From NCBI RefSeq assembly GCF_037081715.1, contig NZ_JAZDDH010000001.1, positions 62,001 to 126,000 of the forward strand: 64,000 nt of DNA, given 5' to 3'. This document shows positions 4,320-17,857 of the stretch, one piece after another. Both the position numbers and the translations under genes were made by a program. Each line of letters begins with the position of its first letter. Within the stretch, counting starts at the first letter, position 1. Under the pieces are notes generated by a model that was not told where the DNA came from, made no database searches, and saw only the letters and a program-made list of their open reading frames with translations. The stretch comes from Halalkalicoccus sp. CG83 (GTDB taxonomy: Archaea > Halobacteriota > Halobacteria > Halobacteriales > Halalkalicoccaceae).

Positions 4320-6422
4320 ATGGCCAGCGCGGAGAACCAGGAGCTCGTCGGCCGTTTCGAGGAGTTCTACCGCACGTACTATCAGAACGAGATCGGCGAG
4401 CTGGCACAGCACTATCCCAACGAACAGCGCTCGCTCTTTCTCGACTGGACCGACCTGAATCGGTTCGACCCCGACGTCGCCGACGACTACCGCAACCAGC
4501 CCGAGCAGATGCAGCCCTACGCCGAGGAGGCCCTCCGTCTCTACGACCTCCCCGTCGACGTCAGTCTCGGTCAGGCCCACGTCCGGGTCCGGAACCTCCC
4601 CGACTCGACGGAGATCCGTGAGATCCGCTCGAAGCACGTCAACACGCTGGTGGAGGTCCGGGGGATCGTCCGGAAGGCGACCGACGTCCGCCCCAAGATC
4701 GAACAGGCGGCCTTCGAGTGCCAGCGCTGTGGCACCCTCACGCGGATCCCCCAGGGCGGGGGCGACTTCCAGGAACCGCATCAGTGCCAGGGCTGTGAGC
4801 GCCAGGGTCCCTTCAGGATCAACTTCGACCAGTCGGAGTTCGTCGACGCCCAGAAGCTCCGCATCCAGGAGAGCCCGGAGGGGCTGCGCGGCGGCGAGAC
4901 CCCACAGAGCCTCGACGTCCACATCGAGGACGACATCACCGGTGAGGTCACGCCGGGCGATCACGCCCGCGTCACGGGCGTGCTCCACCTCGAACAGCAG
5001 GGCTCCGACCGCGAGAAATCCACCATGTTCGACATCTACATGGAGGGCGTCTCGGTCGAGATCGAGGAGGAGCAGTTCGAGGACATGGACATCACCGACG
5101 AGGACAAGCGAGCGATCATCGAGCTCTCGAACGATCCCGGCATCTACGAGCGGATGATCGACAGCCTCGCGCCCTCGATCTACGGTCACCGCCAGGCGAA
5201 GCTCGCGATGACGCTCCAGCTCTTCTCCGGGGTGACGAAACACCTCCCCGACGGCTCGCGTACCCGCGGCGACCTCCACATGCTGTTGATCGGGGATCCC
5301 GGGACCGGGAAGTCACAGCTGCTCCAGTACATCCGCAACATCGCGCCCCGATCGGTCTACACCTCCGGGAAGGGCTCCTCCTCGGCCGGGCTCACGGCCG
5401 CCGCGGTCCGCGACGACTTCGGCGACGGCCAGCAGTGGACGCTCGAGGCGGGCGCGCTCGTGCTCGCCGACCAGGGGATCGCCGCGGTCGACGAGCTCGA
5501 CAAGATGCGTCCCGAGGACCGTTCGGCGATGCACGAGGCGCTCGAACAGCAGTCGATCTCGATCTCGAAGGCGGGAATCAACGCTACGCTCAAGTCGCGG
5601 TGTTCGCTGCTCGGCGCGGCGAACCCAAAATATGGAAGATTCGACCAGTACGAACCGATTGGCGAGCAGATCGACCTCGAGCCCGCACTCATTTCGCGGT
5701 TCGACCTGATCTTCACGGTCACCGACAAGCCCGACCCCGACGAGGACCGCAAGCTCGCTCAGCACATCCTCCAGACCAACTACGCGGGCGAGCTCAACAC
5801 CCAGCGGACGAACCTGAGCTCGCCGGACGTCACCCGCGAGGAGGTCGACGCGGTCACCGAGCAGGTCGCCCCCGACATCGACGCCGAACTGCTGCGCAAG
5901 TACATCGCGTACGCCCAGCAGACCTGTTATCCCCGGATGACCGACGGTGCCCGCGAGGAGATCCAGGAGTTCTACGTCGACCTCCGCTCGAAGGGGGCCG
6001 ACGAGGACGCGCCCGTTCCCGTGACGGCCCGAAAGCTCGAGGCGCTCGTGCGACTAGCGGAGGCGAGCGCGCGGGTTCGACTCTCGGACACCGTCGACAG
6101 CGAGGACGCCGAACGGGTGATCGAGATCGTGCGTTCCTGTCTGCAGGACATCGGTATCGACCCCGAGACGGGCGAGTACGACGTCGACGTGATCGAGACG
6201 GGACGCTCGAAGACCCAGCGAGATCGGGTGAAGGGGATCAAACAGATCATCCGCGAGCTCCAGGAGGAGTACGACGACGAACGCGGTGCGCCCGAGGAGA
6301 AGGTCATGGAGCGCGCAGAGGAGGCGGGTATAGAACAGGACAAGGCCGAACACGAGATCCAGAAGCTCAAGAACAGGGGCGACATCTACTCACCAGGGTC
6401 GGATCATCTGCGCGTGGTCTGA
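4320..6422 (+). CDS. mcm: replicative helicase MCM
   Basis: 700 residues, full-length archaeal MCM; it forms the hexameric 3'-5' helicase that unwinds DNA at the fork. N-terminal domain A and an OB fold carry a zinc site (C134, C137, C156, C159). The AAA+ domain shows Walker A GDPGTGKS (325-332), Walker B VDELDK (390-395), sensor-1 GAANPKYG and the arginine finger in LISRFDL. A winged-helix domain follows near the C-terminus (GIKQIIRELQEEYD to DHLRVV). No intein is present, although haloarchaeal MCM genes sometimes carry one. The ATG at 4320 follows a TTCATACC element about 30 nt upstream. Its last ~85 codons are copied in the next gene. Confidence 0.98.
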   Translation: MASAENQELVGRFEEFYRTYYQNEIGELAQHYPNEQRSLFLDWTDLNRFDPDVADDYRNQPEQMQPYAEEALRLYDLPVDVSLGQAHVRVRNLPDSTEIREIRSKHVNTLVEVRGIVRKATDVRPKIEQAAFECQRCGTLTRIPQGGGDFQEPHQCQGCERQGPFRINFDQSEFVDAQKLRIQESPEGLRGGETPQSLDVHIEDDITGEVTPGDHARVTGVLHLEQQGSDREKSTMFDIYMEGVSVEIEEEQFEDMDITDEDKRAIIELSNDPGIYERMIDSLAPSIYGHRQAKLAMTLQLFSGVTKHLPDGSRTRGDLHMLLIGDPGTGKSQLLQYIRNIAPRSVYTSGKGSSSAGLTAAAVRDDFGDGQQWTLEAGALVLADQGIAAVDELDKMRPEDRSAMHEALEQQSISISKAGINATLKSRCSLLGAANPKYGRFDQYEPIGEQIDLEPALISRFDLIFTVTDKPDPDEDRKLAQHILQTNYAGELNTQRTNLSSPDVTREEVDAVTEQVAPDIDAELLRKYIAYAQQTCYPRMTDGAREEIQEFYVDLRSKGADEDAPVPVTARKLEALVRLAEASARVRLSDTVDSEDAERVIEIVRSCLQDIGIDPETGEYDVDVIETGRSKTQRDRVKGIKQIIRELQEEYDDERGAPEEKVMERAEEAGIEQDKAEHEIQKLKNRGDIYSPGSDHLRVV

Positions 6423-6450: not shown

Positions 6451-6480
6451 CGTTCTATACGATATATTTAAATAGTTAGA

Positions 6481-6510: not shown

Positions 6511-7674
6511 ATGACCTCGAACGAGTCCAATGCTGCCGACACACAGGACGACCACCGCCGTCTTCTCGTCCTTCTCAACGAATACGGCATCTCAGAGAAC
6601 GCTCAACGATTACTCGCGCTACAGTTGACTGGCGGGTGTATATATACTCACGGCGAACGCCACATCCGGGGAGAGATCAACATGGCCCTATTCGTCGGCT
6701 CAGAGGCAAACCAATCCGGACTGCTTGAGACACTCACCGCAATTTCGCCAGGGAGTACGACGATCAACGCAACCGGGGCGAGCTATGGCGGGCTGATCGC
6801 GAACGCATCCGGCCAATCAGTTGAGCCGGGAATCCTCCTTGATGACCAGTACGACCGATACTTCATCCATCGGGCAGGCGACCTTGGCGAACGGACGAGA
6901 CGGGCACTCAGTGGTCTGCTCGAATCGGGCACGCACACCATCACCAAATCCAACGTCCACAAGCGCCTCGAGAATCATGCGAGCTACCTGCTGACGGATA
7001 CGCCCAGATACGGCGATTGGGACAAGTACGAGCCGTTGTCCGACCAGTTACCGATCACCGGCGAACTGCTCTCGAAGTTTGATCTCGTCGTGGCCAGCCA
7101 TGAGAGTGGGCGGGTGAACTACGGCGTCGACCCGTTGACGCGCGACGCGGCGACGCAGTATCTCTCCGGGGTGCGTTCGATCACACCAGCCTTTTCAGAG
7201 GACGTACGGGAAGAACTTACCACCCGCCTCGTCTCGCTACAGGAGCGTCTGGATGATGACCGGCCCCCTGTGAAACTCCAGTTTCACTCGTTCCGGCGGT
7301 TCGTGGATGCAGCGGCGCGATTGGAGCGCTCCGAGACGGTCGAGCCACACCATATCGAGTATGCTACCTCACTTATCGAGGAAGCATTCGAAGATCTCGG
7401 GATCCTCACCGTCCCTGAGGAAGAAGAGTACGACGTCGACGTGATCGAGACGGGACGCTCGAAGACCCAGCGCGACCGCGTGAAGGGGATCAAACAGATC
7501 ATCCGCGAGCTTCAAGAAGAGTACGATGGCGAGCCCGGTGTTCCGGAAGAGAAGGTCTATCAACGGGCGGAGGAATCTGGCCTGGAGCGGAATAAGGCCG
7601 AAAACGAAATCCAGAAGCTCAAGAATAAGGGCGATGCCTATTCACCCATCGAAGATTACCTCCGGCTGGTCTAA
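6511..7674 (+). CDS. MCM-derived paralogue with a degenerate ATPase
   Basis: 387 residues that align with the AAA+ and winged-helix part of the neighbouring MCM but lack its whole N-terminal OB/zinc domain. The catalytic motifs are gone: GDPGTGKS is replaced by GSEANQSG (about 63-70), the Walker B DELDK position reads IHRAGD, sensor-1 NPKYG became TPRYG, and the arginine finger SRFDL became SKFDL. The structural block PRYGDWDKYEPLSDQLPITG is kept. The last ~80 residues (YDVDVIETGRSKTQRDRVKG to EDYLRLV) are almost the same as in MCM. It should therefore bind DNA or MCM through the winged helix but not hydrolyse ATP. It has its own TATA box and an intact frame. A regulator, a decoy subunit or a relic of a mobile replicon are all possible; function is inference. 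Confidence 0.85.
   Translation: MTSNESNAADTQDDHRRLLVLLNEYGISENAQRLLALQLTGGCIYTHGERHIRGEINMALFVGSEANQSGLLETLTAISPGSTTINATGASYGGLIANASGQSVEPGILLDDQYDRYFIHRAGDLGERTRRALSGLLESGTHTITKSNVHKRLENHASYLLTDTPRYGDWDKYEPLSDQLPITGELLSKFDLVVASHESGRVNYGVDPLTRDAATQYLSGVRSITPAFSEDVREELTTRLVSLQERLDDDRPPVKLQFHSFRRFVDAAARLERSETVEPHHIEYATSLIEEAFEDLGILTVPEEEEYDVDVIETGRSKTQRDRVKGIKQIIRELQEEYDGEPGVPEEKVYQRAEESGLERNKAENEIQKLKNKGDAYSPIEDYLRLV
7426..7674 (+). repeat. 3'-end copy of mcm (partner 6174-6422)
   Basis: The 3' ends of mcm and its paralogue align without gaps at an offset of 1252 nt. Over 6174-6259 versus 7426-7511 I count 83 of 86 bases identical, all three differences at third codon positions. Similarity then falls but stays recognisable to the stop codons. 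Upstream of 7426 the two genes are far more diverged. Confidence 0.8.
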
Positions 7675-7816: not shown

Positions 7817-8377
7817 TCAAATAGTAGTCCGGGAGAGATATTTGAAATAGAGTATAAAAGTAATCAGTATCAAATCTAAGAAAACAAGATAATTTCGAGG
7901 ATAGAATAAGCTATCCCATCGTTTTAATAGTGGGATTCTCTTTACAATCGGATTAGAGTATATATTATGGAGATTATTTGACTCGTTCTTCTCATAATAA
8001 TAGCTCCTATATGTTTCTGGGTTCTTTTCACTGTCTTCATCTAACGGAAACCAATCGTCTTGGAACTGATACGACCCGCCAATAATTCCTATCCAGAATA
8101 CTCCAATTATGAAATAGATATACAGTGGAACACCACCGACTGCTTCCCATCCTAGAATAAGTGTGTGAATTATACCATAAATGCCGGTCACCATTATAGA
8201 ATATACAATAACATATCTATCATACGTATATAATGTATAGGTGATGTATTCTTCCCTGAAATGATCTTCATAGACCGAAACGACCCGTCTCCACTTCTCA
8301 TGAAATGAAGGGCCTAAAAGTCCTAACACGAGTATGAGGAGCAATGGCGTGATTTCGAATGCTGCTTGTTCGATCAT
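7817..8377 (-). CDS. four-helix membrane protein, third gene of AT-rich operon
   Basis: 186 residues with about four hydrophobic segments: ITPLLLILVLGLLGP (9-23), YVIVYSIMVTGIYGIIHTLIL (about 55-75), IYFIIGVFWIGIIGGSY (about 86-102) and YLVFLDLILITFILYF near the C-terminus. Charged loops rich in Tyr and Glu (EYITYTLYTYDRY, YRSYYYEKNESNN) separate them. Its start overlaps the end of the preceding gene by four bases (8374-8377, ATGA), so the two are translationally coupled. I do not recognise the family. Codon usage is AT-rich, unlike the surrounding chromosome. Confidence 0.75.
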   Translation of the reverse strand: MIEQAAFEITPLLLILVLGLLGPSFHEKWRRVVSVYEDHFREEYITYTLYTYDRYVIVYSIMVTGIYGIIHTLILGWEAVGGVPLYIYFIIGVFWIGIIGGSYQFQDDWFPLDEDSEKNPETYRSYYYEKNESNNLHNIYSNPIVKRIPLLKRWDSLFYPRNYLVFLDLILITFILYFKYLSRTTI

Positions 8378-8823
8378 ACTGTTAATTCATAGGATATGTT
8401 CAATTCCCCCCAATCATTTATAATATCCATAAGAGGACTAGGATTCCCCGAGATGGGATTCTGTATTATAGATATAATTTCACTATAGTTATTTGATATC
8501 TTCATGGAGCTATGATGGATATCTATTGTGACATCCTCGTTATACTGATTAGCTGAAGGTGATGATTGGTTGATTATAAATACCTCTTTCAAGTTACCTC
8601 CTGGCTTAATGAGAAGATCAGTGCGACTGTTATTCTGGATATTAATTTCGTTATGTGTTGATTCCAAATTTATGTGTATTCTCTTATTACTATTCTTATA
8701 GCTTTCAATTTTGACTACTTGCTCGTATTGCTCTCCGTGATTTAGTTTACAACTACTACCTTTTCGCCGCAAATATGTTTTCACACGCAAACCATCGCGT
8801 GTACAATCGTCAGAACAAGACAT
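8374..8823 (-). CDS. unknown protein, second gene of AT-rich operon
   Basis: 149 residues starting MSCSDDCTRDGLRVKTYLRR. It carries three early cysteines (C3, C7, C25), then a region rich in Asn, Ser and Ile that looks beta-stranded (RIHINLESTHNEINIQNN, DVTIDIHHSSMKISNN). There is no signal peptide or membrane segment, so it is probably cytoplasmic, with a beta-sandwich-like pattern. The gap to the upstream gene is 2 nt and it overlaps the downstream membrane gene by 4 nt, so all three are one operon. Family not recognised. Confidence 0.7.
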   Translation of the reverse strand: MSCSDDCTRDGLRVKTYLRRKGSSCKLNHGEQYEQVVKIESYKNSNKRIHINLESTHNEINIQNNSRTDLLIKPGGNLKEVFIINQSSPSANQYNEDVTIDIHHSSMKISNNYSEIISIIQNPISGNPSPLMDIINDWGELNISYELTV

Positions 8824-8825
8824 AA

Positions 8826-9362
8826 TTAATACTCCGAGTTTTCTTCTCCGATATTTAGCTCTGAATAAACAACTTGTTCTGCTGTACTCAGAACATCCAC
8901 AAGTACATCTGCATCATTATTGGATGTTTCTTCGTAATATTCTTTGAATATGTCGAAATTATATGCCTCTGCAACAACAGTAAAGTTATTGGATCTTTGC
9001 TGTTCTTCCCATGATATTTCTATATCATATCCATCTACTTGGAAATGAGTGCATACGTCTAAACTCTCTTCATGATTAGATATTAAATTATCTATATTGG
9101 TACGCAGGAGATAATTTTCTTCGTCAGGCGGCTCAAAAACGGCGGTTGCCTCTCCAGAAGAAACGGCATTAAATATTTCTGAGTTTATCCAGTTGCGAAG
9201 GGTACATGATGTTTCCCACTCTGCTACAAATTCATTTTGTTCTTCTAAAGTGTCCAATATCAGGCAATATGTCGATAAATTGTCATGACTGATACCGTGT
9301 CGAATGGTAGTCGGATCAACGTCTGGTTCTAGCGTCTCCTCGGTAGCTATCTCAGCTGGCAT
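8826..9362 (-). CDS. unknown acidic protein, first gene of AT-rich operon
   Basis: 178 residues from the ATG at 9362 (MPAEIATEETLEPDVDPTTI); a GTG at 9371 could add three residues. It is soluble, acidic and Asn-rich, with alternating strand-like segments (STYCLILDTLEEQNEFVAEW, VDGYDIEISWEEQQRSNNF) and an acidic tail (VVYSELNIGEENSEY). No known domain is evident to me. As first gene it defines the operon promoter in the AT-rich sequence at 9363-9440. Possible partner of the membrane protein encoded two genes later; this is only a guess from gene order. Confidence 0.7.
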   Translation of the reverse strand: MPAEIATEETLEPDVDPTTIRHGISHDNLSTYCLILDTLEEQNEFVAEWETSCTLRNWINSEIFNAVSSGEATAVFEPPDEENYLLRTNIDNLISNHEESLDVCTHFQVDGYDIEISWEEQQRSNNFTVVAEAYNFDIFKEYYEETSNNDADVLVDVLSTAEQVVYSELNIGEENSEY

Positions 9363-9474
9363 GGGTATCACTCACACGGTGGATAGAGAGTTTGAGGTAA
9401 TATCACTATTTCGACTTCGTGAAAAAATACAATCATGTCTGTACGTAGGTTGGCTGTTCGGCGATATCACCAGA

Positions 9475-9921
9475 CTACGTCTGGTGGTTTGCGGAGATCC
9501 TCTCGGCGATATCGTCGAGTTCGTCGTCGGAGAGATCGGGTCGCGAGCCGACGATCGCGTGGATCGGGTTGCCGCCGTCGTCCTCGAATCGGGGGATGAC
9601 GTGGCCGTGGAGGTGGGGGATCTCCTGGCCGGCCGCCTCGCCGTTGTTGAACGCGACGTTCGAGGCGTCGGCGTCGATCGTTTCCTCGACGATCGGCGTG
9701 AGCCCGTAGAGCACCGAGAACACCTCGCTTGCGAGCTCCTCGGGGGTGTCGGCGAGCGTCTCGTGGTGAGCCTTCGGGATCACGAGGGTGTGGCCCGGCG
9801 CGAGCGGGTTCGCGTCGAGAAAGGCGAGGACGTTCTCGGTCTCGTGGACGGTCCGCGAGGGGATCTCGCCCGCGACGATCCGACAGAAGATACAGTCCTC
9901 GTCCGTGGGTTCGACTGACAT
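9475..9921 (-). CDS. HIT-family nucleotide hydrolase/transferase
   Basis: 148 residues with the defining histidine triad HLHGHVIPR (H103, H105, H107), whose middle His forms the nucleotidyl intermediate. The N-terminal CIFCRIVAGEIPSRTVHE includes a Cys-x-x-Cys that with later His residues can bind zinc, as in the Hint/PKCI branch. Members hydrolyse AMP-lysine, AMP-NH2 or dinucleoside polyphosphates in the cytoplasm; the exact substrate cannot be told. Length and motif order are normal. It lies 32 nt from the end of the uracil-DNA glycosylase gene on the same strand and may be co-transcribed with it. Confidence 0.93.
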   Translation of the reverse strand: MSVEPTDEDCIFCRIVAGEIPSRTVHETENVLAFLDANPLAPGHTLVIPKAHHETLADTPEELASEVFSVLYGLTPIVEETIDADASNVAFNNGEAAGQEIPHLHGHVIPRFEDDGGNPIHAIVGSRPDLSDDELDDIAERISANHQT

Positions 9922-9953
9922 ACGGGCACCGTCGACGGCCGCGACAAAGAAGG

Positions 9954-10625
9954 TTATCCCACGATGGCGTCGAGTCGCGAACGCAACGCGTCACGGTACT
10001 CCTCGGGCGTGTAACCGAGTCGGGCGATCCAGATGTTCTGATAGGAGGGGTGAAGCACCGGCACGAGAGGAACCGAGAGCGCCTCGCACTCGATCGTCTC
10101 GAGGACGTGGCCGACGAACCCGTCGAGCGAGCGGTCGTCGAGCGCGAGCAGCGTCTCGGTGGCGTGCTTACCCGTGGGGACGACGACGTCCGGACGCACC
10201 TGCTCGATCTCGGTTCGGAGATGGACGCGGCAGTTCGAGAGTTCCTCGTCGGTCGGCTCCCTGTTCGATACCTTCCCACCGTCGGAGCCCGGCTCCGACG
10301 AGCTCCCACTCGCTTCGTTCGCGGGAACGTCGGGCGGAAAACACTTCACCGCGTTCGTGTAGTAGGCGTCGGTGTAGCCGACGTCCTCCATGAGGTCGCG
10401 GATCACCCTCCCGGAGTGGCGGGCGGTGTAGGCCATCCCCGTCCAGTTGCCGCCCTTCCACCGGTCGGCCTGGGGGGTCCCGGCGCCGGGTGCCTCGCCG
10501 ACGACGATGACGGAGGAATCGAGCGGGCCGGTCCCCCACGAGATGCACTCGCGGCTCTCGGCGAGGTGGGGACATCGGGTGCAGTCGGGTTCGAGGACGT
10601 TGCGTGAATCGGGGTACTCGGGCAC
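9954..10625 (-). CDS. uracil-DNA glycosylase family protein (family 4/5-like)
   Basis: 223 residues starting at GTG 10625 (VPEYPDSRNVLEPDCTRC). It removes uracil from DNA as the first step of base excision repair. N-terminal CTRCPHLAESREC supplies Cys ligands of the usual iron-sulfur cluster. Motif A is VVGEAPGAGTPQADRW and motif B is VLHPSYQNIW. The region ASGSSSEPGSDGGKVSNREP is a hydrophilic insertion absent from the core fold, encoded by a palindromic stretch (10279-10299). The GTG is chosen because homology-like sequence begins there; the open frame upstream is compositionally non-coding. Divergent from the peroxiredoxin gene. Confidence 0.88.
   Translation of the reverse strand: MPEYPDSRNVLEPDCTRCPHLAESRECISWGTGPLDSSVIVVGEAPGAGTPQADRWKGGNWTGMAYTARHSGRVIRDLMEDVGYTDAYYTNAVKCFPPDVPANEASGSSSEPGSDGGKVSNREPTDEELSNCRVHLRTEIEQVRPDVVVPTGKHATETLLALDDRSLDGFVGHVLETIECEALSVPLVPVLHPSYQNIWIARLGYTPEEYRDALRSRLDAIVG
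10279..10299. repeat. palindrome inside the uracil-DNA glycosylase gene
   Basis: CGTCGGAGC, loop CCG, GCTCCGACG: a 9-bp stem with a 3-nt loop, falling in the insertion that encodes SSSEPGSDGG. The frame is preserved. The same stem-plus-3-nt-loop design recurs in the intergenic hairpin cluster at 11540-11733. Confidence 0.7.
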
Positions 10626-10712
10626 GACGAAAGGAAAGGGTGCGACGAGGAAAGCCGTGTCGAGTCGGATCCGGACCCCGAAGGCTATGGGTCGTCGGGC
10701 CGAGCACTGCTC

Positions 10713-11204
10713 ATGGTCGAGCAAGGGGATCGAGCGCCGGACTTCACGGTTCCGATCGCACGCGGCGGAGCGTACAACGACGTCGAGGAGTTCACCCTCT
10801 CGGAACGTCTCGGAGACGGTCCGATCGTTCTCGCGTTCTTCCCGGCGGCGTTCACCAGCGGCTGTACCGAGGAGCTCTGTACGTTTCGCGACTCGATGGC
10901 GACGTTCAACGACCTCGACGCGTCGGTCTACGGGATCAGCACCGACCTGCCGTTCGCCCAGAACACGTTCATCCAACGGGAGGGACTGAACTTCCCGCTG
11001 TTGAGCGACTACGAGCACGACGCCATCGAGGCGTACGGCGTCGTCCGCGAGGGGTTCTACGACGTCATGCGCGTCGCCGAGCGCTCGGTGTTCGTGATCG
11101 ACTGCGAGGGCATCGTCGCCTACCGCTGGGTCCGCGAGGGCGAGAACCCCGATTTCGAACGGCTCGTCGAGGAGATCCGCGGGGCCGTCGAACGGGCGAG
11201 GTGA
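10713..11204 (+). CDS. peroxiredoxin, AhpC/BCP type
   Basis: 163 residues, a cytoplasmic thiol peroxidase that reduces hydrogen peroxide and organic hydroperoxides. The peroxidatic motif PAAFTSGC places the catalytic Cys at 51, and C56 five residues on is positioned as the resolving Cys of the BCP/PrxQ subgroup (CTEELC). The thioredoxin-fold strands GPIVLAFFP and YGISTDLPFAQNTFIQ are in order. The start ATG at 10713 follows a GGCTATGGG TATA-like element near 10685. The stop overlaps the GTG of the next small ORF by the arrangement GTGA, which suggests coupled translation. Confidence 0.93.
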   Translation: MVEQGDRAPDFTVPIARGGAYNDVEEFTLSERLGDGPIVLAFFPAAFTSGCTEELCTFRDSMATFNDLDASVYGISTDLPFAQNTFIQREGLNFPLLSDYEHDAIEAYGVVREGFYDVMRVAERSVFVIDCEGIVAYRWVREGENPDFERLVEEIRGAVERAR

Positions 11205-11431
11205 CCGGTCGACGGCTCGCGATCGTGATCCGGACGATCGATCCGGCGGCCTCCGGGAGGGTCCACGAGACGCTCTGGGAGGCGTTCGAGGACGCGGACG
11301 TCGAGATTCCGTACCCCCACACCCACCTCGTCTTCGACGAGACGAGCGGTCAGGCTGGGATCGTGGTCGAACGCGAACCGCCGCTCGCCGAGGCAAGCGG
11401 TAGTGGAGAGACTGCAAGCACGGCGGACTGA
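11201..11431 (+). CDS. small ORF resembling the C-terminal tail of an MscS channel
   Basis: 76 residues starting at a GTG that overlaps the peroxiredoxin stop (GTGA). RRLAIVIRTIDPAASGR and VHETLWEAFEDADVEIPYPH resemble the cytoplasmic alpha/beta end of mechanosensitive MscS channels, where the chain closes with AGIEIPFPQ-like sequence. The membrane and beta domains of MscS are missing, so this is either a remnant or a small free-standing protein made by coupling with the peroxiredoxin. The tail EREPPLAEASGSGETASTAD is low complexity. Assignment is by similarity of a short segment only. Confidence 0.5.
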   Translation: MTGRRLAIVIRTIDPAASGRVHETLWEAFEDADVEIPYPHTHLVFDETSGQAGIVVEREPPLAEASGSGETASTAD

Positions 11432-11539
11432 GGCGATCGACGAGTGAGATCTACATGCGGGCGGCCCGGTGGCCGGCGTGAGCGCGGGCGGTACGCCCAC
11501 TGCCCGCGCGAACGGTACGGGGAAAGGCTGGCTTCGGAA

Positions 11540-11733
11540 GCGAGCGATTCCGATCGGAATCGCTCGCAAGCGGTCCTGGTGGTCTCGAGAATCGCTTCGC
11601 GATTTTCTGGACCCGAAAAGACCGCAGAGCGGTCTTTTCTTAGAAATGAAAAGGGCGAGCAGCGCGAGGTCGCTCCGCGACCTCGCTGGCGAACGGGACG
11701 CGGAGCGTCCCGTGAGCGAGGCGCGCCAGCGCC
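11540..11733. repeat. cluster of six hairpin-forming palindromes
   Basis: Stems read from the sequence: 11540-11567, a perfect 28-nt palindrome; 11587-11607, 9 bp with one G-T pair, loop TTC; 11616-11638, AAAAGACCGC stem, loop AGA; 11664-11686, GCGAGGTCGC stem, loop TCC; 11694-11712, CGGGACGC stem, loop GGA; 11720-11733, GGCGC stem, loop GCCA. The spacing is close to regular, and the stems differ in sequence, so they are not copies of one unit. Confidence 0.85.
11616..11640 (+). terminator. hairpin with T tail, candidate terminator
   Basis: A 10-bp stem (AAAAGACCGC/GCGGTCTTTT) with a 3-nt AGA loop, ending in TTTTCT. It resembles an intrinsic terminator for the peroxiredoxin transcript, and its symmetry would also serve the opposite strand. 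Archaea do not generally require such hairpins, so this is tentative. Confidence 0.35.
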
Positions 11734-11787
11734 GAGTGAGGGCTTTCGACCGATTCGCCTTTACCTGCCGGGTTGATTGGTGGGAAC

Positions 11788-14700
11788 ATGAGCAGGTTCG
11801 CCGAGGTACCCGACCAGTACGACCCCGAGGCGGTCGAACAGCGGGTGTTCGACTACTGGGACGAGGTCGACGCCTACGAACGAACGAAGGAGGCCAACGC
11901 GGACGGGGAGACGTTCTTCTTCGTCGACGGTCCGCCCTACACGTCTGGCGCGGCCCACATGGGGACGACCTGGAACAAGACGCTGAAGGACGCCTACATC
12001 CGCCACCTCCGGATGCAGGGCTACGACGTCACCGACCGCCCGGGCTACGACATGCACGGGCTGCCGATCGAGACGAAGGTCGAGGAGCGACTGGGCTTCG
12101 AGAACAAGAAGGACATCGAGGAGTTCGGGATGGAGGCGTTCATCGCCGAGTGCCAGTCGTTCGCCGACGAGCAGCTCGAGGGGCTCCAGGAGGACTTCAA
12201 GTCCTTCGGCGTCTGGATGGACTGGGAGAACCCCTACAAGACGGTGACGCCCGAGTACATGGAGGCCGCCTGGTGGGGGTTCTCACAGGTCGCCGATCGG
12301 GGACTGGTCGATCGAGGGAAGCGCTCGATCAGCCAGTGTCCCCGGTGTGAGACCGCGATCGCGAACAACGAGGTCGAGTACGAGGACGTCGAGGACCCGA
12401 CGGTGTACGTCGAGTTCCCGCTCGCCGATCGCGAGGGGAGCCTCGTCATCTACACGACGACGCCCTGGACCATCCCCGCCAACGAGTTCGTCGCGGTGAA
12501 CGAGGGACTGACCTACCAGCGAGTCCGCGCGAGTCGCGACGGCGAGAAGGACGTCCTCTACGTCGCGGAGGGCTGCGTCGAGAACGTCCTCGATAAGGGC
12601 CGCTACGACGACTACGAGATCGAGGACGAGCTTTCGGGTTCGGAGATGCTCGGCTGGGAGTACGACCACCCGCTCGTCGAGGAGGTGCCCGCGAACCCCG
12701 ACGTCGAGGGCACTCGACGGGTGTACCACGCCGACTACGTCGAGGCCGAGGACACCGGCCTCGTGCACTCCGCGCCGGGCCACGGTGAGGTGGACTTCGA
12801 GCGCGGCCGGGAGCTCGATCTGCCGGTCTTCTGTCCGATCGGCGGCGACGGCGTCTACACCAGCGAGGGCGGCGCCTACGAGGGGCAGTTCGTCAAGGAC
12901 GCCGACGGGGAGATCACGGCGGACCTGGAGGAGAAGGGGCTACTCGTCGCCTCGGGGACGCTGAGCCACTCCTACGGGCACTGCTGGCGGTGCGACACCC
13001 CCGTCCTCCAGATGGCGACCGACCAGTGGTTCATCACGATCACCGACGTCAAGGACGAACTGCTCGAGAACATCGAGGACAGCGAGTGGCACCCCGAGTG
13101 GGCGCGGGACAACCGGTTCAGGGACTTCGTCGAGAACGCGCCCGACTGGAACGTCTCGCGCCAGCGCTACTGGGGGATCCCGATCCCGATCTGGGTGCCG
13201 GAGAACTGGTCGGGCGGGATGGACGAGGCGATCGTGGTCGGCTCGCGCGAGGAACTCGCAGAACGGGTCGATCAGGAGGTCGACCCCTCCACCATCGACC
13301 TCCACCGCCCGACCGTCGACGACCTGACGATCACCGAGGACGGAACGACCTACGAGCGGGTGCCGGACGTCTTCGACGTCTGGCTCGACTCCTCGGTCGC
13401 GTCGTGGGGTACCCTCGATTACCCCGAGAAGGAGGAGGGGTTCGAGGAGCTCTGGCCCGCGGACCTCATCATGGAAGCCCACGACCAGACCCGCGGCTGG
13501 TTCTGGTCCCAGCTGGGCATGGGAACCGCCGCCGTCGGCGAGATCCCCTACGAGGAGGTGCTGATGCACGGCTTCGCCAACGACAACGAGGGCCGCAAGA
13601 TGTCGAAGTCGGTGGGCAACGTCGTCCAGCCCCACGAGGCGATCCAGCGCCACGGCGCCGACGCGATGCGCCTGTTCCTGCTCTCGGTCAACCCTCAGGG
13701 CGAGGACATGCGCTTCTCCTGGGACGAGATGGCGACGATGGAGCGGAACCTCAACATCCTCTGGAACGTCTTTCGGTTCCCGCTGCCCTACATGCGCATG
13801 GACGGGTTCAATCCGGACGAGACCGATCTCGAGAGCGTCGATTCGGACCTCGAACTCGTCGACGAGTGGATCCTCGCGCGCCTCCAGACCGTGATCCGCG
13901 AGATGAGCGAGTCCTGGGACGAGTTCCGCCAAGATCAGGCGCTCTCGGCGCTGATGGAGTTCGTCGTCGAGGACGTCTCGCGGTTCTACGTCCAGGTCGT
14001 CCGCGAGCGCATGTGGAAGGAGGAGGACAGCCCCTCGAAGAACGCGGCGTACGCGACGCTGTATCACGTCCTCACCCGAATCGTTCGACTGCTCGCTCCC
14101 TACGCGCCGTTCGTCGCCGAGGAGATACACGGTACCCTCACCGACGACGACGAAGCCGCTACCGTCCACGTACGCGAGTGGCCCGCCGTCGACGAGTACT
14201 GGGTCGACGGGGAGCTCGAGACCGACGTCGAACTGGTTCGGGCGGCCGAGGAGGCGGGATCGAACGCCCGCCAGCGGGCCGAACGCAAGCTCCGCTGGCC
14301 CGTCTCTCGCGTGGTGGTCGCCGCCGGCGACGACCGGCTGGCCGAGGCCGTCGGTCGCCGACGGGAGCTGCTCGAGGACCGGCTCAACGCCCGCGAGGTT
14401 CGAGTGGTCGCTCCCGACGAGGAGTGGGAGGAGCTCGCCTACAGCGCCCGTGCGGACATGAGCGTTCTCGGCCCCGAGTTCGGAGACCGTGCCGGCGAGG
14501 TGATGGGCGCGCTCAACGAGGCCCGAGTCGAGGAGCCCACGATCGAGGCGCTCGAGGCCGCGGTCGCGAAGGCGCTCGGCGAGGAGGTCGACCTGAGCGA
14601 GGAGATGGTCGAGTTCGTCGAGGAGACGCCCGAGGAGGTCTCTGGAACCCGGATCCGGATCGAGGGCACCGAGCGGGGCGTCGTCTACGTCGACACCGCG

Positions 14701-14985
14701 CTGACCGAGGACATCGAGAGCGAGGGCTACGCCCGCGAGGTGATCCGGCGGATCCAGGAGATGCGAAAGGAGCTCGATCTCCCTCTCGAGGCACCCATCC
14801 GCGTCGAGCTCGACATCGCGGACGACCGCGTCGCCGAGCTGGCCCGCGAGCACGAGGAGCTCATCGCGGAGGAGGTCCGCGCCGCGGAGCTCGGTACCGT
14901 CGAGGACGGCCACTGCCGCGAGTGGGACGTCGAGGGCGTCACGATGCTGATCGCGATCGAATCGCTCGCCGAGGCGTCGGCCTGA
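11788..14985 (+). CDS. ileS: isoleucyl-tRNA synthetase
   Basis: 1065 residues, normal for archaeal IleRS, which charges tRNA-Ile and edits mischarged valine. The class I signature region reads PPYTSGAAHMGTTWNKTLKD, so the classical HIGH box is HMGT here. The KMSKS loop is GRKMSKSVGNVVQPHEA. Between them are the CP1 editing domain and WYFIT-like DQWFITITDVKDEL; Cys pairs CPRCETA and CWRCDT can bind zinc. The C-terminal anticodon-binding domain follows (VDEWILARLQTVIREM). The ATG at 11788 (MSRFAEVPDQYDPEAVEQRV) is preferred to a TTG 15 nt upstream. It is preceded by the hairpin-rich spacer. Confidence 0.98.
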   Translation: MSRFAEVPDQYDPEAVEQRVFDYWDEVDAYERTKEANADGETFFFVDGPPYTSGAAHMGTTWNKTLKDAYIRHLRMQGYDVTDRPGYDMHGLPIETKVEERLGFENKKDIEEFGMEAFIAECQSFADEQLEGLQEDFKSFGVWMDWENPYKTVTPEYMEAAWWGFSQVADRGLVDRGKRSISQCPRCETAIANNEVEYEDVEDPTVYVEFPLADREGSLVIYTTTPWTIPANEFVAVNEGLTYQRVRASRDGEKDVLYVAEGCVENVLDKGRYDDYEIEDELSGSEMLGWEYDHPLVEEVPANPDVEGTRRVYHADYVEAEDTGLVHSAPGHGEVDFERGRELDLPVFCPIGGDGVYTSEGGAYEGQFVKDADGEITADLEEKGLLVASGTLSHSYGHCWRCDTPVLQMATDQWFITITDVKDELLENIEDSEWHPEWARDNRFRDFVENAPDWNVSRQRYWGIPIPIWVPENWSGGMDEAIVVGSREELAERVDQEVDPSTIDLHRPTVDDLTITEDGTTYERVPDVFDVWLDSSVASWGTLDYPEKEEGFEELWPADLIMEAHDQTRGWFWSQLGMGTAAVGEIPYEEVLMHGFANDNEGRKMSKSVGNVVQPHEAIQRHGADAMRLFLLSVNPQGEDMRFSWDEMATMERNLNILWNVFRFPLPYMRMDGFNPDETDLESVDSDLELVDEWILARLQTVIREMSESWDEFRQDQALSALMEFVVEDVSRFYVQVVRERMWKEEDSPSKNAAYATLYHVLTRIVRLLAPYAPFVAEEIHGTLTDDDEAATVHVREWPAVDEYWVDGELETDVELVRAAEEAGSNARQRAERKLRWPVSRVVVAAGDDRLAEAVGRRRELLEDRLNAREVRVVAPDEEWEELAYSARADMSVLGPEFGDRAGEVMGALNEARVEEPTIEALEAAVAKALGEEVDLSEEMVEFVEETPEEVSGTRIRIEGTERGVVYVDTALTEDIESEGYAREVIRRIQEMRKELDLPLEAPIRVELDIADDRVAELAREHEELIAEEVRAAELGTVEDGHCREWDVEGVTMLIAIESLAEASA

Positions 14986-15032
14986 TTCATATCAGCCAAA
15001 AGTAATATCTTTTCGTAAGTAATCGAGGCGGT

Positions 15033-16964
15033 ATGAACCGCCGGGCCGGCGCTCTCGCCCTGTTCTGCCTAGTGGCGTTCGTCGTCGCCGTTCCGGCGAC
15101 GGCCACGGGTACGGGCGCGGGCATCGGAGGCGAGGTGCTCCGGCTCGAACAGGAGCTCGTGGCGACCGAGGAGCCCGGCGAGATCGAGGTCGTCCTCCGG
15201 TTCGACGTGCCCGAGTCGGTGATCGAGCTTCGGACGACCGTCCCCGATGACGCGACCGTGACTGCTACTGACGGGTTCGAGTCGGCGGGCGGGGAGTACG
15301 AGTGGAACGGCGAAACGCGGACGCCGACGCTGACCTACGCCGTCCCGACGGACCGGGCGTTCGAGGAGGGAGGACTCGTGTTCGTCGACACGGGCGAGTG
15401 GGCGCTGGTCGAGCGGCCGAGGACCTCAGTCCGCTGGCGGTGGGTCGGCTCCGAGCGGGTCGTCCTCGAACGGACGACCACCGCCGAACTGGGAGCGGTC
15501 GGTACCGACTCCGCGTTTCTCGGCGATCACACAGTCGACGTCAGGGAGACGGGCCACGAGACGGTGGCGCTCGTCGTCCCCTCGGCGGCGTCACCCACGG
15601 AATCGCGGGACGCGATCCACGCCTCGATCGGGGACGCCACGGAACGCCTGCGGGTCGGCGGGCGGAGCGATCGGGTGTTCGTCGTCGTCGCACCGTCGAT
15701 CGACGGGTGGGGCGTCCGGGGACTGCAGTTCGGCGCGTCGGACGTCTGGGTGCGCGAGGACAGCCGCCTCGACGATCCGGACAACGTCTGGGTACACGAG
15801 TACGTTCACACCCGCCAGACGTACGAGGCCGATCGGGAGGTACGCTGGTTCCGGGAGGGATCCGCGACGTACTACGCGGCGCTGCTGACGTACGAACGTG
15901 GCGACGTCGAGTTCGAGGCGTTCCGCGACCGCCTCGCCAGCGGGGAACGCTCCCCCCATGCCGACGACGTCCTCGCCGATCCCACGACGTGGACCCGCGG
16001 TCCCGACTACCACAAGGGCGCGCTCGTCGCCGCCGACCTCGACCGACGGATCAGGCTGGCGAGCGGCGGCGAACGCGACCTCCAGGACGTCCTTCGGGCG
16101 ATGAACGAGCACGAAGGTATCGTGACTCAGTCGGCGTTCCTCGCGATGGTCGAGGAGGCGGGCGGTCCCGGGGTCCGCGAGGTCGCCTGGACCCACACCG
16201 AGACCCGTGACGGGCCGGTGATGTGGGACGAGCGGACCCACCACGAGGCGTTCGACCTGACCGCACCGCGGATGGAGTACCGGCTGACGGACGACCCCGT
16301 GGCGTACCGCGTCTCCGGGCCGTACCGCGAGCGTCCGCTGGCTTCCGACGAGGAACTCGTCCTCGTTCCGGGCGAGCGCCTCGAAACGACCGCGACCGTC
16401 GAGAACGCCGGCGACGCCCCCGGCGAGTACGCGACGACCGTCGCGGCCGACGGGACGAACCGAGCGATCGAGGGTCGTCTCGAACCCGGCGAGCACGCCG
16501 AGATCGGAATCGACCGGACGTTCGAGGAACCGGGGACGTACACGCTCTCGGCGGGCGACGCGAGCGTTGACGTCCGCGTCGTCGAGCCCGCCGAACCGAC
16601 CGTGACCGGCGTCGAGCCGTCGTCGTCGACCGCCGCTCCGGGCGAGGTCGTCACCCTCGTCCTCACGGTGGAGAACGATGCGGCAGTGCCGGGCCGGGCC
16701 GACCTGGAGCTCCTCGATGCCGAGGGGGTCCGCGGGAATCGGAGCGTTCGACTGGACGCCGGGGAGACGAGGACGGTCGAGTTCGCGACACGCTTCGAGA
16801 CCGCGGGCGAACACGAGCTTCGCGTCGGCGATCGATCGACGATGGTGACCGTCGAGCCTGCGTTGGTCTCGACCCAGTCCGGCTTCGGCGTTCCGGTCGC
16901 GCTCGCGGCGTTCGCGGCGGTCCTGTTCAGCGAAGCGCCCCGGCGACCGCGGGGGCGGCGCTGA
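15033..16964 (+). CDS. secreted, membrane-anchored metallopeptidase-like protein with CARDB-type repeats
   Basis: 643 residues. A signal peptide (MNRRAGALALFCLVAFVVAV, about 1-25) leads to an extracellular part. A gluzincin zinc motif is visible: H255-E-Y-V-H259 with the third ligand probably E275 in WFREGSATYY, as in M1/M61-like peptidases. Residues about 430-615 form two beta-sandwich repeats of the CARDB type (VPGERLETTATVENAGDAPG and APGEVVTLVLTVENDAAVPG). A C-terminal hydrophobic helix (PVALAAFAAVLF) and a basic tail anchor it outside the cell. The substrate is unknown. Its last 38 bases overlap the convergent prs gene. Confidence 0.8.
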   Translation: MNRRAGALALFCLVAFVVAVPATATGTGAGIGGEVLRLEQELVATEEPGEIEVVLRFDVPESVIELRTTVPDDATVTATDGFESAGGEYEWNGETRTPTLTYAVPTDRAFEEGGLVFVDTGEWALVERPRTSVRWRWVGSERVVLERTTTAELGAVGTDSAFLGDHTVDVRETGHETVALVVPSAASPTESRDAIHASIGDATERLRVGGRSDRVFVVVAPSIDGWGVRGLQFGASDVWVREDSRLDDPDNVWVHEYVHTRQTYEADREVRWFREGSATYYAALLTYERGDVEFEAFRDRLASGERSPHADDVLADPTTWTRGPDYHKGALVAADLDRRIRLASGGERDLQDVLRAMNEHEGIVTQSAFLAMVEEAGGPGVREVAWTHTETRDGPVMWDERTHHEAFDLTAPRMEYRLTDDPVAYRVSGPYRERPLASDEELVLVPGERLETTATVENAGDAPGEYATTVAADGTNRAIEGRLEPGEHAEIGIDRTFEEPGTYTLSAGDASVDVRVVEPAEPTVTGVEPSSSTAAPGEVVTLVLTVENDAAVPGRADLELLDAEGVRGNRSVRLDAGETRTVEFATRFETAGEHELRVGDRSTMVTVEPALVSTQSGFGVPVALAAFAAVLFSEAPRRPRGRR

Positions 16965-17775
16965 CCCGGCTCTCGACGCGCTCGATCGTATCGGTGCCGT
17001 AGACCGCATCGACGCCCGCGCGGGCGAGCTTCGTCCGGGCGTTGTCCGCGAGCATGGGGTGGACGCAGGTCACGAACACCCGCTCGGGGGCCCGGTTTCG
17101 GAGGACGGTGATCGCCTCGCTCATCGTCGAGCCGGTGGCGATGATGTCGTCGACGACGACGACGTCGCGACCGGCGACGTCGACGTCGCTGGGAGCGATC
17201 TCGACCTCGCTTCCCGAGCGGCGTGTCTTCTCGAAGTAGTCGGTCTCGCCGGCGCCGTGGGCGTCGCGGACGGTCTCCGCGAGCCCGACCGCGCCGGAGT
17301 CGGGCGAGAGGAAGACGGGGTCGGTCAGGTCGGGAAGCGGTTCGGCCAGCCGATCCGCGGCCGTCACCGACTCCGCGGGCGCGTCGAAGAACTCCAGAAT
17401 CGCCTCCTCGTGGGGGTCGACCGTGAGCACGCGGTCGGTTCCGGCGCTCAGCGCGCGTGCAGCGGCCCGCGCGGAGATCGGCTGGCCCGGCACGAAGGCA
17501 CGGTCCTGACGGGCGTAACCCATGTAGGGGATGACGGTCGTGATCTCCTCCACGCCGGCCTCGCGGAGCGCGTCCTGAAGCTGCAGCAGTTCGACGTGGG
17601 CGTCGCTCGAGACGGTCGAGGCGACGACTGTCGCGCGGTCGGTCTCGATTCCCGGAACGGAGGCGAGCAGCTCGCCGTCGGGGAACCGCTCGTACTCGAC
17701 GGGGGCGAGACGGTCGTCGAGCACGCTCGCGAGTTCGGCCGCGAGCGCCTGTGAGGTGGAGCCGGGTACGATCAT
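16927..17775 (-). CDS. prs: ribose-phosphate pyrophosphokinase
   Basis: 282 residues. It makes PRPP from ribose 5-phosphate and ATP for nucleotide, histidine and tryptophan synthesis. The PRPP-binding signature VVVVDDIIATGSTM is intact, and the N-terminal flexible-loop region is VIPYMGYARQDRAFVPGQPIS. The length suits the archaeal class III-like enzymes. The start is ATG complementary to 17773-17775 (MIVPGSTSQ). The 3' end runs 38 nt into the convergent peptidase gene, so both coding ends share DNA. Confidence 0.96.
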   Translation of the reverse strand: MIVPGSTSQALAAELASVLDDRLAPVEYERFPDGELLASVPGIETDRATVVASTVSSDAHVELLQLQDALREAGVEEITTVIPYMGYARQDRAFVPGQPISARAAARALSAGTDRVLTVDPHEEAILEFFDAPAESVTAADRLAEPLPDLTDPVFLSPDSGAVGLAETVRDAHGAGETDYFEKTRRSGSEVEIAPSDVDVAGRDVVVVDDIIATGSTMSEAITVLRNRAPERVFVTCVHPMLADNARTKLARAGVDAVYGTDTIERVESRVSAAPAVAGALR

Positions 17776-17857
17776 ACCGGAGGGACACCGCCCGCGTTGA
17801 ACCCGTTTTCGGATTCCGAGCCGACGGGCTGAAACCCCTGCTCGAAGAAGGGCCGGT

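Follow-up and report, generated by a model that had tools for sequence, protein, structure and literature searches.

A truncated, ATPase-dead MCM protein beside mcm in Halalkalicoccus sp. CG83 has relatives on haloarchaeal plasmids and a winged helix of host type

Introduction

Inactive MCMs, N-terminal-only MCMs, and plasmid-encoded MCMs are already known. In eukaryotes, MEI-218/MCMDC2 and MCM-BP are MCM-derived proteins with degenerate ATPase motifs and non-helicase roles. Control of active enzymes by enzyme-dead relatives is familiar in signaling but, to our knowledge, hardly so for archaeal replicative helicases, and we know of no plasmid family or winged-helix (WH) exchange for MkaMCM2, the MCM2 of Methanopyrus kandleri. 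MkaMCM2 (PDB 3F8T) resembles the truncated protein described here (tMCM) in being inactive, having internal deletions, and lacking a conserved Walker A motif (PMC2933578); it differs in being a single methanogen protein with a structure that includes N-terminal subdomains (PMC4619765), and the two are likened by description only. 3F8T was absent among the PDB sequence matches listed for tMCM.

The haloarchaeal N-terminal-only MCMs (outliers of 312-315 amino acids; PMC3972481) are also pieces of MCM, and proteins of the same kind occur on plasmid-vesicle plasmids, but they represent the opposite half (MCM_N plus OB); a C-terminal-only, ATPase-dead form is absent among the 39 proteins of that study. 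Archaeal MCMs of plasmids and viruses (the pHALXA03 MCM, encoded near a Cdc6 gene, HJTV-4, and BJ1) are carried by mobile elements, as tMCM is, yet they are full length, and those included in our tree fall outside the tMCM clade. The inactivated RecJ/Cdc45 homologues of Halobacteria, which are enzyme-dead and proposed to persist as a structural subunit in replication (PMC3307487), offer a parallel from a separate enzyme family. The eukaryotic MCM derivatives are cellular proteins with other roles. A C-terminal-only, ATPase-dead plasmid MCM family with an exchanged host-type WH was not found in the open-access literature; the tMCM family, the elements that carry it, and the history of its WH are new here.

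Results

The window analyzed is a 64,000-nucleotide stretch of the Halalkalicoccus sp. CG83 genome. It contains the host mcm gene (4320-6422, + strand), which encodes the 700-amino-acid replicative helicase with every motif intact, and, 88 bp beyond the mcm stop codon and on the same strand, the gene for the 387-amino-acid tMCM (6511-7674), recognized from Pfam matches, motifs, a tree, and a structural model. The first-pass annotation had claimed an intact frame and a dedicated TATA box, and both stand: the ORF starts with ATG, has no internal stop codons and GC1/2/3 values of 0.64/0.40/0.70 (GC3 coding-like), and a TATA-like TTTAAATA (6467-6474, + strand; a consensus match only) lies 36 bp upstream of the ATG. 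Further downstream, three AT-rich orphan ORFs on the minus strand (7817-8377, 8374-8823, and 8826-9371) complete the low-GC island to which tMCM belongs, with GC dropping to 35-60% vs. ~66% in the surroundings. No Pfam or NCBIfam families were found for these ORFs, no match was found for the one searched against plasmids, and their sequences provided no evidence for a role as tMCM partners. Relative to sister genomes G001 and G004, the adjoining block (9454-17808, with HIT, UDG, peroxiredoxin, and ileS genes) has the opposite orientation, and one breakpoint of this inversion coincides with the tMCM island. No clear match in the window was found for the ~8 kb downstream of mcm in those sisters.

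The domain content of tMCM is that of the C-terminal half of an MCM. Pfam matches to the MCM P-loop domain (PF00493; 2.8e-16, 59.8 bits, above the cut-off of 23.3) and the archaeal MCM winged helix (MCM_WH_arc, PF21120; 4e-6, 27.2 bits vs. a cut-off of 26.1) confirmed the AAA+ scaffold and WH noted at first pass, while MCM_lid (PF17855; 4.5e-5, 24.3 bits) scored slightly below its cut-off of 27.4. Pfam gave no MCM_N or MCM_OB match, in agreement with the reported absence of the entire N-terminal half; the A/Zn/OB tier is missing and the ORF is too short for one. The AAA+ core (amino acids 1-200; 6511-7110, + strand, as are all features of the gene) has the shortened helix-2-insert region typical of the family and is ATPase-dead. 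Alignment with the neighboring mcm product bore out the loss of Walker A, Walker B, the sensor-1 Asn, and the arginine finger. Walker A is degenerate (GDPGTGKS to VGSEANQS, amino acids 62-69, 6694-6717, with Gln68 in place of Lys), the Walker B acidic pair Asp-Glu has become His120-Arg121 (6868-6873; VDELD to IHRAG), sensor-1 Asn is Thr164 (7000-7002), and the arginine finger is Lys189 (7075-7077; SRFD to SKFD). The sensor-2 TAR of the neighbor is missing as well. Retained is the pre-sensor-1 (PS1) hairpin Lys146 (6946-6948), invariant in all eight intact tMCMs; in active MCMs, this Lys faces the DNA channel. A linker of 30 residues, vs. 71 in the host mcm product, precedes the probable AAA lid domain (Pfam match at amino acids 215-292; 7153-7386), and the protein ends in a WH domain (7426-7674) whose nearest relative is the host mcm WH (6174-6422).

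The AlphaFold2 model of tMCM (mean pLDDT 72.6), biased toward MCM because its input alignment consisted of real MCMs and a single relative, contains an AAA+ core, a PS1 hairpin (strands 141-146 and 149-154), lid helices, and a WH. Its best match among solved structures is the archaeal MCM 6mii (Z 27.4, rmsd 3.3 over 287 residues). By its P-loop and WH matches over the Pfam cut-offs, tMCM belongs to the MCM family; with neither the N-terminal tier nor the catalytic residues, it does not qualify as an MCM replicative helicase, and catalysis is excluded by its sequence.

Searches covered the window's genome, its relatives, the order, and the class, with up to ~390 genomes each, and found tMCM relatives to be few and patchily distributed. 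An intact 388-amino-acid copy is present in sister genome G006, which also has a broken copy (contig C85), as does G003 (contig C17); two of the four Halalkalicoccus copies are therefore broken. Proteins of ~400 amino acids are encoded in G052 and G188 (Natronorubrum texcoconense), G392 has two in tandem, and plasmid copies occur in Natrinema pallidum (pNPA70) and N. thermotolerans (A29). The sites thus comprise Halalkalicoccus contigs, one AT-rich contig, and four plasmids or plasmid-like contigs. None of the eight intact tMCMs has the Walker A Lys, the Walker B Asp, or the arginine finger, and four of them lack the sensor-1 Asn. The expectation of orthologues with the same motif losses next to mcm held in part: such relatives exist, but among those read only the window's gene lies beside mcm. 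Its position had been taken as potentially meaningful, and this found no support, as the gene lies elsewhere in both other Halalkalicoccus genomes that have it and sisters G001 and G004 have no tMCM at their mcm locus. Separately, a similar membrane-protein-like gene (MVD.[TS]GH...; L034 9556-10110 and L035 9958-10548) lies ~1.5-2 kb from both broken Halalkalicoccus copies.

For intact pairs, dN/dS came to 0.27 between the window and G006, at a dS of 1.4, and to 0.24 between N. pallidum and N. thermotolerans, at a dS of 0.9; both ratios are well under 1. The corresponding mcm values were 0.08, 0.13, and 0.05. These ratios indicate that the tMCM family is under constraint, weaker than that on mcm.

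In a mixture-model tree of 40 AAA+ domains, the eight tMCM domains formed one clade (support 100/99). Two deletions accompany this grouping: one leaves 11 residues in the helix-2-insert region of 8/8 tMCMs, where all 33 other MCMs compared have 18-21, and the other leaves a linker of 30-32 residues past the arginine finger, where the others have 56-71. The window protein has its AAA+ domain in the clade and carries both deletions, which together define a tMCM. Forcing the Halalkalicoccus tMCM pair to group with Halalkalicoccus mcm cost 21.8 log units and was formally unrejected (AU p 0.09); an origin of the pair from that mcm is disfavored because both deletions are common to all tMCMs. As judged from sequence, the eight truncated, ATPase-dead proteins share a single AAA+ origin.

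The WH has a separate history. The last ~82 codons of tMCM (7426-7674) share 79% DNA identity with the tail of the neighboring mcm, whereas the AAA+/lid remainder has ~31% protein identity to the host MCM. A single WH clade for the eight tMCMs was rejected (AU p = 0.0004; 0.0002 without the G392 pair). Instead, the window WH pairs with the window mcm (95/83) inside a Halalkalicoccus clade (100/99), that of G006 groups with Halalkalicoccus mcm (seven-row clade, 100/99), that of Natronorubrum with its own family's mcm (81/97), and one of the two in G392 with G392 mcm (94/77). WH identity is highest, or tied, for the own host group in 8/8 tMCMs (0.80, 0.58, 0.57, 0.69, 0.58, 0.54, 0.42, and 0.52, the hosts for N. 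pallidum and N. thermotolerans being other strains of each species), and no host-matching signal was detected in the AAA+/lid where it was measurable. A host-matching permutation over four host groups gave 1 of 24, a result to be read with the short domain (79 columns) and the non-independence of one three-member family in mind. Within the window, the mcm tail (6174-6422) has 30 sites unlike all four sister mcms; tMCM shares the private base of the window mcm at 14 of these and has the sister base at 11. The WH exchange between tMCM and mcm in the window is recent by this comparison, with a mosaic pattern from which the direction is indeterminable; the window mcm may itself have been altered. 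The first-pass label of MCM paralogue does not extend to an origin from the neighboring mcm, to which the WH tail alone is close, through recent exchange.

An ORF7-type subtilase and an ORF25-type packaging ATPase are hallmarks of pR1SE-like plasmid-vesicle elements (apHPV), on which MCM proteins are the most frequent replication genes (PMC10818511). The ORF7 type was found on 4/4 tMCM plasmids or plasmid-like contigs and the ORF25 type on 3/4, with both on the Natronorubrum, G052, and A29 elements and ORF7 alone on pNPA70. On three of the four (pNPA70, A29, and the Natronorubrum contig), tMCM adjoins a conserved ~390-amino-acid gene, and the same three encode a Cdc6/Orc-type protein. An N-terminal-only MCM is also encoded by A29 and the G052 contig; an obligate split-MCM pair was rejected, with this partner on just 2/4 elements. 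N-terminal-only MCM genes on plasmid-vesicle elements (L234 12001-12945, L246 13191-14150, and L247 15682-16641) lie directly downstream of the ORF25-type ATPase. The G052 contig was considered as a tailed virus on account of a PCNA-like gene, an assignment overruled by its subtilase, ORF25-type ATPase, and N-terminal-only MCM, and by gene content it groups with the plasmid-vesicle elements.

A viral origin for tMCM was rejected: matches in the phage collection were MCM helicases at 20-27% identity, the seven viral-contig loci were MCMs (six full length, one partial) with scores far below those of tMCMs, and an AAA+-only scan produced no matches. A role in a defense system was also set aside, no usable PADLOC match having been found. 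The window's genome yielded no ORF25 relative and, for ORF7, distant subtilases far from tMCM and no convincing relative; tested for apHPV core genes, the window tMCM came out negative. The occurrence of relatives on plasmids and plasmid-like contigs favors the earlier suggestion of a former mobile replicon, and we infer a plasmid-to-chromosome route for the window gene.

Discussion

We consider the evidence about evenly poised on whether tMCM represents a pseudohelicase family of haloarchaeal mobile elements, mainly pR1SE-like, that docks through its host-type WH. Such a protein would carry a WH like that of the host MCM on an inert AAA+ scaffold and would, without unwinding DNA, bind the partners of that MCM, either the AAA+ domains of Orc1/Cdc6 or the MCM ring at its C-terminal tier. 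PMC5333045, citing Samson 2016, describes the WH of Sulfolobus islandicus MCM as binding the ATPase domain of Cdc6-1 and this binding as required for initiation at oriC1. On plasmids, tMCM could then recruit, hold, or divert the host initiation machinery to the benefit of the plasmid; an adaptor or decoy at initiation is proposed because the protein is motor-less, its WH is of host type, and the element has its own Cdc6. The chromosomal Halalkalicoccus tMCM may have been domesticated to modulate mcm loading, or it may be a remnant left stranded. A more specific version, which we hold tentatively and regard as doubtful, makes tMCM a replication effector of mobile elements, with an inert AAA+ chassis and an exchangeable, host-derived docking domain by which Orc1/Cdc6 would be captured or blocked. 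On entry into a new host lineage, the WH would be overwritten by recombination with the host mcm, and tMCM would keep mimicking the local helicase; on some elements, an N-terminal-only MCM might supply the other half of a split, motor-less MCM. The WH exchange could also be a neutral outcome of sequence similarity.

A family that holds on to one inert scaffold but trades docking domains with its hosts would document directly how plasmids and hosts compete or cooperate over replication initiation. It would also allow the MCM surface that recruits the helicase to be identified by a simple genetic test in tractable haloarchaea, and tMCM could plausibly serve to hijack host replication or to block it.

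The best surviving alternative, a possibility we would not favor, is that the chromosomal tMCM is a functionless, decaying relic and that selection on the family acted on plasmids; the broken copies in G006 and G003, the missing gene at the mcm locus of sister species, and the AT-rich orphan island around tMCM are all consistent with this, but the intact frame, coding-like GC3, TATA-like box, and low dN/dS of the window/G006 pair argue otherwise. It is rather unlikely that tMCM poisons the ring by using its AAA+ faces to insert itself into the hexamer of the host MCM, with a dominant-negative effect on helicase activity. The predicted AAA+ fold, complete with lid and PS1 hairpin, and the absence of catalytic residues acting in cis as well as of those acting in trans would suit such an activity, yet the absent N-terminal tier and the shortened helix-2-insert and linker make the fit into a ring doubtful, and the AAA+/lid, so distant from the host MCM, shows no host-matching. 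Retention of the WH and PS1 Lys would also be compatible with a DNA-binding accessory or transcription factor that uses these alone and binds no MCM partner, an improbable explanation that accounts for neither the retained AAA+ scaffold nor the host type of the WH. Local tandem duplication of the 3′ half of mcm followed by decay has adjacency, shared strand, and the WH identity to recommend it and is nonetheless scarcely credible, recent duplication of mcm being rejected by an AAA+ clade that spans other families and by the deletions common to it.

Full-length MCMs with degraded motifs (a Halorussus pelagicus plasmid, G038, and G342) fall outside the tMCM clade and lack its deletions, and the ATPase has therefore been lost more than once. 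The loci L042, L008, L051, and L144, outside the tMCM clade, encode MCMs of full length in which Walker B, the arginine finger, or both are degraded, and in some of them Walker A too, as separate ATPase losses. Remote dead-MCM fragments without a WH are present on a Haladaptatus caseinilyticus plasmid and in G018 (L060 3731-4606 and L040 8046-8768, the latter on the minus strand).
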